In this document: positions 3,286-55,000 of the stretch, in pieces
Position numbering within the stretch: the stretch's first letter is position 1
How the letters are laid out: each line of letters begins with the position of its first letter
Source: Pseudoxanthomonas sacheonensis
GTDB lineage: Bacteria; Pseudomonadota; Gammaproteobacteria; Xanthomonadales; Xanthomonadaceae
Assembly (NCBI RefSeq): GCF_010093305.1
Contig: NZ_PDWS01000010.1
Span: 62,001-126,000 of the forward strand
Direction: 5' to 3'
Length of the DNA stretch: 64,000 bases
The notes under the pieces: generated by a model
Database searches by the model: none
What the model was told of the DNA's origin: nothing
The model's input: the letters and a program-made list of their open reading frames with translations, nothing else
Position numbers and translations under genes: made by a program

Positions 3286-3690
3286 TTGCCGTCATCCCAG
3301 CGCAAGCTGGGATCCATCTTGATCTTGATTCTGCTCTTGCTCCCGCTTCTGCCTCCTCCCTTGCGCGCAGCGCAGGGGAGGATTGAGGAGGGGTGCTCTT
3401 GATCTTGCTCTGGTTTTTGCTTGTGCCTCAAAGCAAGAGCGTTTCGCGCTAACGCGCGAGTCACTTTTCTTTGAACGGCAAAGAAAAGTAACCAAAAGAA
3501 AGCCGCCCTAACGTCGCGCCCAACGATAGAGCCGTTGGGTCCGCAAGCAGGCCAGGAATTTCCGTAAGACACATCCTGTGTCTACGGAAACGGCGCACAT
3601 CCCTGTGCGCCGCCCCTTCGGGGTTGATCCCGACCTGCTTGCCGCGTCTCACGGGATAATGAAGCTAAAAGCAAGGGCCGAACCTATCCT
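3286..3690. repeat. Gene-free intergenic mosaic of small hairpin repeats
   Basis: About 400 bases with no credible gene. Visible pieces are a TCATCCCAGCGCAAGCTGGGATCC hairpin-like unit near 3292, a CTTTTCTTTGAACGGCAAAG/AAAAG palindrome near 3463-3488, and two adjacent hairpins at 3559-3590 (CCGTAAGACACA-TCC-TGTGTC-TACGG) and 3591-3612 (CGGCGCACA-TCCC-TGTGCGCCG). The last two share the core ACATCC(C)TGTG. From memory, similar hairpin strings are scattered through Lysobacter-type genomes. The short open frames here are low-complexity and unsupported. Confidence 0.7.
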
Positions 3691-6085: not shown

Positions 6086-6281
6086 GAGCCCCTCTCCCTT
6101 CGGGAGAGGGGTTGGGGTGAGGGTACGGCGAAGTGAAGATGGCGCCGAAGCTGTATGAATGAGGAGCTGATCATTGCGCCCGTCAGGGCCACAAATATCA
6201 CTTCGCCGTACCCTCATCCGCCCTACGGGCACCCCGTATCGAGTACGGGGCAGGCTCTTCTCCCAGAGGGAGAAGGGGAAA
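6086..6281. repeat. Paired palindrome/G-rich intergenic repeat, copy 1
   Basis: The left half has GAGCCCCTCTCCC-TTC-GGGAGAGGGG, a G-rich tail (TTGGGGTGAGGG) and TACGGCGAAGT. The right half carries the inverted ACTTCGCCGTACCCTC, then CCCCGTATCGAGTACGGGG and CTTCTCCC-AGA-GGGAGAAGG. It ends almost at the cysS stop. Related copies lie at 22805-23030, 37399-37549 and 45993-46215. Confidence 0.85.
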
Positions 6282-28766: not shown

Positions 28767-28872
28767 GCAAATCCCCCTCAATCCCCCTTTTTCAAAGGGG
28801 GAGGCAATTTCGCTCCTTTGCAATGAGTAGCCAGTATCCCCCCTTTGAAAAAGGGGGGCAGGGGGGATTTGC
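28767..28872. repeat. Paired CCCCCTTT repeat inside the his operon
   Basis: GCAAATCCCCCTCAATCCCC, then a CTTTTTCAAAGGGGG palindrome, ~45 nt of spacer, then CCCCCTTTGAAAAAGGGGG and GGGGGGATTTGC inverted. Related copies flank the D-2-hydroxyglutarate dehydrogenase gene at 41945 and 43557. Confidence 0.88.
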
Positions 28873-37398: not shown

Positions 37399-37549
37399 GA
37401 GCCCTTCTCCTACGGGAGAAGAGCCTGCCCCGTACTTGATACGGGGTGCCCCGAAGGGCGGATGAGGGTACGGCGAAGTCCAGATGCTTGTAAGACATGG
37501 ACTTCGCCGTACCCTCACCCCAACCCCTCTCCCGTTGGGAGAGGGGCTC
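37399..37549. repeat. Paired palindrome/G-rich intergenic repeat, copy 3
   Basis: Opposite orientation to copy 1. It starts GAGCCCTTCTCC-TAC-GGGAGAAG, CCCCGTACTTGATACGGGG and GATGAGGGTACGGCGAAGTC, and closes with GACTTCGCCGTACCCTCACC, CCAACCCCTCTCCC and GGGAGAGGGGCTC. The 17-bp central inverted repeat is perfect. It lies just past the mtnB stop. Confidence 0.88.
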
Positions 37550-45992: not shown

Positions 45993-46215
45993 CCTCTCCC
46001 CTTGTGGGAGAGGATGCCCGGAGAGCCTGCCCCGTACTTGATACGGGGCAGGAGAGGGACGCGAGCGCAGCGACGCGTGCTCTGGCTTCACATCGCTCGA
46101 AACCTTCCGGCGATTCACCGCCGATGGCTCCGGCTCACCCTCTCCCGGCCTTCGGCCACCCTCTCCCATCAAGGGAGAGGGGAGCGTGGAGCGGCTTTCG
46201 GCCACCCACTCGCAT
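45993..46215. repeat. Paired palindrome/G-rich intergenic repeat, copy 4 (degenerate)
   Basis: CCTCTCCCCTTGTGGGAGAGG, CCCCGTACTTGATACGGGG, then a long spacer and CACCCTCTCCCATCAAGGGAGAGGGG. The central perfect inverted repeat of copies 1 and 3 is missing. It fills the 296-bp gap between the DUF4105 gene and the convergent EF-P-like gene; no gene is supported there. Confidence 0.75.
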
Positions 46216-52507: not shown

Positions 52508-54508
<2,001 letters not shown>

Positions 54509-54513
54509 GGTTT

Positions 54514-54915
54514 TTAGCCCTCCCCTTCAAGGGGAGGGTTGGGTGGGGATGGTTCGGCTCGCTGAGCCAACATATTCAGGATCACTTCGACCACTCCCTC
54601 GATATTTTCGAAAACTTCGTTATTCCAGAACCGGAGCACCCGATAGCCGCATCGTTCCAGATAGCTGGTTCTTGCATTGTCGTACTGCACGTTATCCGCG
54701 TGTTGACCGCCATCCAGCTCTACGACGATCTTTCTTTCCAGGCATGCAAAATCCAGGATGTAATCGCCAAACGGATGCTGTCTTCGGAACTTGCATCCTT
54801 CTAGTTGTCGATTCCGCAAGTATTGCCACAACCTGTGTTCGGCGTCGGTTGGGGCATTCCTTAACTTTCTTTGTAATTTGTTGCCGATGATCTTGCGGTT
54901 TGTCTGTCCATCCAT
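54514..54915 (-). CDS. DUF559/Vsr-like endonuclease domain protein
   Basis: 133 residues. The restriction-endonuclease-like core is visible: RNAPTDAEHRLWQYLRNRQ, CKFRRQHPFGDYILDFAC, KIVVELDGGQHAD (catalytic D...ExD-type residues) and YRVLRFWNNEVFENIEGVVEVIL. The final ~13 residues (EPSPPNPPLEGEG) are encoded by the flanking inverted repeat, and the last two bases of the TAA stop come from flanking DNA. DUF559 proteins are predicted nucleases of unknown role. It has the same orientation as the surrounding leucine genes. Confidence 0.9.
   Translation of the reverse strand: MDGQTNRKIIGNKLQRKLRNAPTDAEHRLWQYLRNRQLEGCKFRRQHPFGDYILDFACLERKIVVELDGGQHADNVQYDNARTSYLERCGYRVLRFWNNEVFENIEGVVEVILNMLAQRAEPSPPNPPLEGEG
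54516..54554 (-). repeat. Left 39-bp inverted repeat of the DUF559 cassette
   Basis: AGCCCTCCCC-TT-C-AA-GGGGAGGG palindrome followed by TTGGGTGGGGATGGTT. It matches the right repeat in 38 of 39 positions (T for G at one). It encodes the endonuclease C-terminus and holds the probable liuD ribosome-binding site. Confidence 0.93.
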
Positions 54916-54954
54916 GTTGTGTCACTCCCTTAACACCATCCTCTCCGAGCCTCA

Positions 54955-54993
54955 AACCATCCCCCCCCAACCCTCCCCTTGAAGGGGAGGGCT
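54955..54993 (+). repeat. Right 39-bp inverted repeat of the DUF559 cassette
   Basis: Inverted partner of 54516-54554: AACCATCCCCCCCCAACC then CCTCCCCTTGAAGGGGAGG and GCT. It lies 40 nt upstream of the endonuclease start. Together they delimit a 478-bp unit. No target-site duplication is evident. Confidence 0.93.
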
Positions 54994-55000
54994 CAAGCCA

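Follow-up and report, generated by a model that had tools for sequence, protein, structure and literature searches.

The 64,000-nucleotide stretch of Pseudoxanthomonas sacheonensis DNA analysed here (the window) carries a DUF559 nuclease gene enclosed by two inverted copies of a palindromic repeat, and related repeats bracket DUF559 genes in many phyla. DUF559 is probably a RAYT-like partner nuclease of REPINs built from triplex-type repeats, and their mobiliser; the mobility itself we infer. It seems reasonably likely that each nuclease is matched to a family of intrastrand-triplex repeats of its own, and that the miniature elements spread in trans in the manner of RAYT systems.

The window cassette

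The features of the window are listed with the evidence for each.

54514..54915, minus strand: DUF559 nuclease gene, 133 aa, last ~13 residues from the left repeat (PF04480 E = 5.5e-43, ORF)
54513..54554, plus strand: left triplex-type repeat arm, hairpin at 54518-54538, third strand on the gene side (arm alignment, palindrome, strict motif scan)
54955..54996, minus strand: right triplex-type repeat arm in the opposite orientation, hairpin at 54971-54991, tail on the gene side (arm alignment, palindrome)
3354..3394, plus strand: dispersed triplex-type motif of another family (TCCTCCCTTGCG...) (strict motif scan)
6089..6122, plus strand: dispersed family-B motif (CCCCTCTCCC...GGGAGAGGGGTTGGGGTGAGG) (repeat pattern search, strict motif scan)
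28838..28869, plus strand: CCCCCCTTT-family dispersed triplex-type motif; repeats of this type adjoin the DUF559 gene at C33:336351 (strict motif scan, locus reading)
37512..37545, minus strand: dispersed family-B motif (repeat pattern search, strict motif scan)
46138..46181, minus strand: dispersed triplex-type motif with a longer, hairpin-like linker (strict motif scan)

The gene between the arms is free-standing, lies between two open frames, and belongs to PF04480 (DUF559; profile search, E = 5.5e-43, 145.7 bits against a cut-off of 20.6). The initial annotation had described a 478-bp cassette with 39-bp inverted repeats matching at 38 positions; the inverted bracket holds, and each arm extends to 42 nt (95% complementary, 400-nt spacer), giving a unit of 484 bp with the arms counted in. 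The palindrome CCCTCCCCTTSAAGGGGAGGG lies inside both arms and has 2 occurrences in the window at up to 3 mismatches, with none in any of 100 shuffles, which is far beyond chance. The strict motif scan lists the left arm only, because the tail of the right arm carries a substitution.

The left repeat had also been read as encoding the last ~13 residues of the protein, with a stop codon completed by flanking DNA, and both points are borne out. The end of the ORF overlaps the left arm, the C-terminus reads ...EPSPPNPPLEGEG, and positions 54514-54516, read on the opposite strand, give the TAA stop, which the outer T's complete. A carboxylase gene, presumably liuD, starts about 5 bp from the cassette (window 54508-54540), and AGGGGAGGG of the cassette repeat lies at about the position expected for its ribosome-binding site.

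Elsewhere in the 4.04-Mb genome (G000), the cassette repeat (family A) heads three REPIN-like elements of ~110 bp, at C22:170158, C40:69327 and C41:185032, and more copies lie at contig ends. The REPIN-like elements consist of two facing palindromes arranged as in the cassette, with the gene absent. The genome has six DUF559 matches, which adjoin different repeat types. The window gene has family A repeats, the gene at C15:64682 lies inside a family-B pair, and the gene at C41:146697 has CCTGCGAA-type arms; those at C41:47245, C42:28292 and C33:336351 have further repeats of this sort on one side only and bracket scores below 20. A loose repeat pattern has 67 matches in the genome, and 41 of them belong to family B. 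The family-B DUF559 gene (G000:C15:64682-64984) has one in-frame TAG despite the abundance of family-B repeats, and a stop-free DUF559 match lies at the corresponding place in the closest relative, G173 (G173:C5:526265). Three family-B copies of G173 (L377, L383 and L388) share a near-identical 22-nt insertion at an identical position, absent in G000, which suggests conversion among copies.

Bracketing at DUF559 loci

Bracketing was scored by aligning up to 450 nt upstream of the domain with the complement of the 250 nt downstream, and a locus was called bracketed at a score of at least 20. The window locus scores 37.5, and its own shifted placements reach 12.5 at best. In the own-family set (the window plus 40 fetched loci, taken as all listed own-genus matches and the best-scoring others), 30 of 41 loci are bracketed, against 3 of 560 shifted placements. 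The phylum-wide set holds 60 loci outside the family, picked by domain alone in order of E-value in the domain search (mostly one locus per genome, with two each from G188 and G396); here 35 loci are bracketed, against 0 of 759 placements. A set of 80 loci from named genomes gives 54 of 77 testable loci against 0 of 1157 placements, and is a measure of breadth rather than frequency, its query having held the repeat-encoded C-terminus and its ranking favouring repeat-bearing loci. The brackets in the named set come from several proteobacterial classes, with one or a few loci from Nitrospirae, Planctomycetota, Chloroflexi, Gastranaerophilales and FCPU426. One locus is common to the family and named sets (L091 = L240).

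The description of the cassette as a nuclease gene between repeats is right, and the arrangement is general. Repeat-encoded C-termini, suspected for other DUF559 proteins, are likewise seen at further loci in the own-family, phylum and named sets. Of the 119 bracketed loci, 116 have a hairpin in the upstream arm, with the tail pointing towards the gene in 83, away from it in 22 and in no clear direction in 11, and the 22 outward-pointing brackets count against the mobiliser reading.

Several individual loci stand apart. At L078 and L085 the DUF559 frame stays open across the downstream repeat and joins a long frame beyond it (~650 aa in total), a possible fusion. The Legionella anisa gene (L231) has unusually long flanking inverted repeats of ~147 bp. 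At L069, L093, L105, L074 and L079, in several genera, DUF559 precedes one and the same gene, which we take to be NAD-synthetase-like, and the flanking repeats differ.

Design of the repeats

Most of the repeats follow a common plan: a pyrimidine/purine hairpin, a linker of 2-3 nt (or longer), and a tail that mirrors the purine half of its own stem. The mirror is perfect (A=T) in 76 of 106 upstream units, and a few units fail entirely. These usable units, with 36 distinct purine halves, come from the 119 bracketed loci, 13 units having been dropped for short stems or a purine half on the other side. The mean match of tail to stem is 0.938; 2000 permutations that reassign tails between units give no mean above 0.847. 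The mirror beats a direct repeat 59 to 4 among 96 asymmetric halves, the remainder being ties. The initial annotation saw a palindrome with a G-rich tail, a plan shared with the scattered repeats; the plan stands, and the tail is more specifically a third strand, covarying with the stem of its own unit. These flanks often contain four G-runs, but the stem-mirroring tail fits a triplex better than a G-quadruplex; the two folds may compete.

The strict triplex motif lies within 250 bp of the DUF559 domain at 35 of 41 family, 47 of 60 phylum and 64 of 71 named loci, and at 19 of 561, 22 of 820 and 16 of 863 control placements, respectively. Linkers were measured in 231 units (inward orientation, exact 9-nt mirror filter, linkers of 1-22 nt permitted); 187 units have a linker of 2-3 nt, another 37 one of 12-22 nt, which in several cases reads as a hairpin. 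The outer dinucleotides of these units are mainly CT, TT, CC, TC and AG, and the commonest outer tetranucleotide, TGCT, occurs in 11; neither a GTAG nor a CGTC tag was found beside the palindrome in the 231 units. The sequence outside the hairpin shows a pyrimidine bias only, and therefore no target site is claimed.

Judged by sequence, the DUF559-associated repeats are of the published intrastrand-triplex motif type. The class II motif (TMECO or boxC), with copies in E. coli, is reported to form a triplex (Holder et al. 2015; PMC4666352), and that paper describes the E. coli copies as having no transposase or integrase remnants around them.

Correspondence between nuclease and repeat

Similarity of the DUF559 domains, compared without the rest of the protein, correlates with similarity of the arms, with a Mantel r of 0.30 in the named set (n = 50 of 54 loci) and 0.60 in the family set (n = 29 of 30), arms longer than 90 nt being left out. 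In both cases 0 of 5000 permutations reach the observed value. A locus also has an excess of its own repeat in its own flanks. In the named set the own arm occurs at 0.050 per kb and the arms of other loci at 0.0052 per kb, a 9.6-fold difference in density, and the 40 own-arm copies compare with a permuted mean of 5.5 and maximum of 21. In the closely related family set the 9 copies lie within the permutation range (mean 3.5, maximum 12).

The REP/RAYT trait that bracketing repeats are also dispersed without the gene is found here, with G078, G035 and G129 as exceptions. G054, with one DUF559 match, has at least 12 dispersed places of its arm beyond its own two. Among the matches listed, G078 has no dispersed full match of the L103 arm, G035 has 5 arm matches of which two are its own, and G129 is rich in repeat families for which it has no DUF559.

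Copy number in Enterobacteriaceae-like genomes

The family of G343, identified as Enterobacteriaceae-like by similarity to YcjD, comprises 246 genomes, of which 27 have a full-length DUF559 (E<=1e-20); 18 genomes with weak, partial or fragment matches were scored as without. The median number of motif copies is 49 with the gene and 0 without, and at least 6 copies are present in 23 of 27 genomes with the gene and 12 of 219 without (Fisher p 9e-20). Because the 219 gene-less genomes include many reduced ones, this pooled test is inflated; the within-genus contrasts are not. Genomes with and without the gene occur together in 13 genera; copy number is higher with the gene in 12 of these contrasts, tied in 1 and lower in 0 (sign p 2.4e-4), and two of the 12 differ by one copy. 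As the genes adjoin such repeats or lie between them in many unrelated bacteria, and DUF559 genomes are richer in them, DUF559 is probably the partner hitherto lacking for the repeats, one that would spread or process them.

The association has exceptions in both directions. Four of the 27 genomes with the gene have at most 2 copies, and some of the 12 gene-less genomes with at least 6 copies have gene fragments, others no match; in genus g110 the genome scored as without has a gene fragment and 121 copies. Among genomes with one gene match the count goes up to 236, in G641. With E. coli K-12 ycjD added to the 27 loci, 21 of 28 have the motif within 300 bp, as do 9 of 108 control placements. 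The E. coli K-12 ycjD gene ends inside a degenerate copy and has a well-formed copy within ~200 bp; both are on the 3' side, so this gene is not bracketed.

Insertion site and relatives

The flank query matches all 38 genus genomes at least in part, and a single locus was read in each of 30 genomes. G000 and G171 have the cassette, in 25 genomes the anchors are 0 to 47 bp apart, and the anchors did not place the other 3. The closest relative, G173, has 5 bp at the site, with flanks 95-96% identical and a carboxylase protein 97% identical. Among the 38 genomes the nuclease at 77% identity or more is found only in G000 and G171, and family-A repeats occur in 9, including G173, which keeps 5 copies without a family-A nuclease, a point against the mobiliser reading.

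In G171 the cassette adjoins the same carboxylase gene, as does a family-A-type cassette in G129, which belongs to another genus; the cassette loci (20 kb) of Luteimonas marina and L. mephitis also contain a match to the carboxylase gene. The cassette therefore has the look of something kept for a long time and frequently missing, and a recent insertion in the window strain is correspondingly weakened. On these comparisons an old resident with many losses appears at least as likely as repeated insertion. The window site is common to divergent relatives and does not show movement. The initial annotation looked to the liuC-liuD regions of relatives for empty sites; cassette-free relatives exist, and the cassette looks more like an old one at one site than like a fresh insertion. 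A local duplication of the repeat unique to this strain is not borne out, as the repeat is found elsewhere in the genome and related repeats bracket DUF559 genes in many phyla.

Gene-less repeats were compared by eye at 21 anchored sites in G000 and G173. No clean presence/absence pattern emerged. About 15 hold a repeat in both genomes; four (L026, L027, L021 and L012) have another repeat type in G173, and two (L017 and L035) were unassigned. None of the 21 proved to be a simple empty site with a target duplication. The G173 counterparts of the four (L371, L372, L387 and L378) are by eye CGTC-type and RAYT/GTAG-type repeats, in slots that hold triplex-type repeats in G000.

The DUF559 protein

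The nuclease is under purifying selection. dN/dS is 0.09-0.27 in the 10 computable pairs out of 13, one of them over only 36 codons, and synonymous sites are saturated in the other three, including G000-G171. Across all 41 aligned domains ten columns do not vary, including E, D, E-x-D, D and R positions; those of E26, D55, E66, D68 and D79 are among them.

The predicted structure (mean pLDDT 78.5, pTM 0.72) has NGO0050 (3hrl) as its best fold match (E 2e-9). It also matches the catalytic fold of I-Bth0305I (3r3p; E=5e-4, TMt 0.79) and, weakly, Vsr (1vsr; E=0.026). DUF559 proteins are probably stand-alone PD-(D/E)XK nucleases resembling Vsr and I-Bth0305I. With no PADLOC match (0 families at E<=0.01), a known anti-phage defence system finds no support. 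No HUH tyrosine transposase (Y1_Tnp) was found in the bracketed window gene, whose matches at E<=0.001 were DUF559 and MTES_1575, the latter below its cut-off.

Proposed mechanism and alternatives

In the proposed mechanism the repeats would be scattered singly or as inverted, REPIN-like pairs, with the gene within a pair or beside a copy. The nuclease would recognise the repeat in its folded form, probably where the DNA at replication forks is single-stranded or extruded, and cut at or next to it, and repair would copy the repeat pair elsewhere. The gene itself would be mostly static, inherited and often lost, and the miniature elements would spread in trans. No transposition event was seen, and it is not obvious that a PD-(D/E)XK hydrolase offers a strand-transfer step.

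A wider claim, to which we give about an even chance, is that DUF559 forms a second, independently evolved class of REP mobiliser, one that reads triplex DNA and drives the spread and turnover of triplex REPINs in several phyla, with E. coli ycjD and boxC/TMECO as a laboratory model. If this is confirmed, elements of the REPIN kind have originated two or more times, with enzymes unrelated to each other, and triplex DNA may be read by a bacterial protein. E. coli K-12 has the nuclease-repeat pair, which makes tests of binding, cutting, knockout and turnover straightforward.

The repeats may instead spread by other means, with DUF559 resolving or cutting fork-blocking triplexes and specialised on the local repeat type. 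This is unlikely, though the likeliest of the alternatives. It accounts for the copy-number association and the co-variation, and the Vsr-like fold speaks for it. It is also in line with PMC4666352, which ties the triplex motif to genomic instability, and with PMC12907096, which describes a Caulobacter DUF559 protein that causes a DNA-damage response on loss of a methylase. It leaves unexplained why the gene is bracketed with tails mostly inward, and why gene-less inverted pairs built like the cassette are dispersed.

It is improbable that the repeats are terminators or insulators that damp a harmful nuclease gene and travel with it, the dispersed copies being leftovers of lost genes or convergent terminators. 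Hairpins do lie at the gene ends, some C-termini and stops fall inside the repeat, and the gene is frequently absent among relatives, but terminators do not need a mirrored third strand, and the 236 copies beside a single gene match in G641 fit poorly.

That RAYT (HUH) transposases spread the repeats with DUF559 as a passenger is strongly disfavoured and highly improbable. Y1_Tnp genes are indeed widespread, being found in 102 of the family's 149 genomes, and inverted repeats bracket 13 of the 20 Y1_Tnp loci that were read at a 450-nt reach (9 at 250 nt). However, GTAGGAGCG/GTGGGAGCG-type repeats lie within 500 bp at 9 of the 20, the strict triplex motif lies within 250 bp at 0 of the 20, and DUF559 arms score at most 0.33 of arm length at 19. 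The exception is L153, whose Y1_Tnp gene has a family-A pair nearby. In G054 the arm of its DUF559 gene has dispersed copies although this genome lacks a Y1_Tnp match.

Equally remote is a selfish homing gene that cuts its own empty site and has the repeats just as its ends, which would suit the fold match to a homing endonuclease catalytic domain and the same site with and without the cassette among relatives, but not the up to hundreds of motif copies per single-gene genome, unexpected under simple homing.

Comparison with known systems

Among the papers listed in a search of largely open-access journals, titles and the starts of abstracts showed no link of DUF559 to REP or triplex repeats. 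The closest parallel to the mobiliser reading is the REP/REPIN-RAYT system (REPtrons). In both, the gene lies within inverted palindromic repeats, gene-less inverted pairs are dispersed, the gene is long held at a given site, and the repeat type is matched to the enzyme. The two differ in that RAYT is a HUH tyrosine transposase, whereas DUF559 has a PD-(D/E)XK-type nuclease and a triplex-type repeat with no GTAG tag seen. The initial annotation had proposed REP/RAYT-like logic with a Vsr-like nuclease, and the bracket and the gene-less dispersed pairs agree with it, with DUF559 in place of Y1_Tnp.

CGTC-tagged REPs (PMC3733652) are also dispersed palindromes without a known transposase; by eye they fill some of the same slots in the sister genome G173, and their sequence differs. 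I-Bth0305I (3r3p, a homing endonuclease catalytic domain) and Vsr (1vsr) have a similar fold and known activity, and in contrast to I-Bth0305I the DUF559 gene of the window is free-standing. The TMECO/boxC repeats, as far as described in the part of PMC4666352 consulted, share the repeat plan, the TTA and CCG linkers, the inverted pairs and the E. coli copies; triplex folding in solution is reported there for TMECO, whereas the families described here are known from sequence. No partner gene or mobility is described in that part of the paper; the present analysis adds DUF559 as a partner, further families in several phyla and the covariation of stem and tail.
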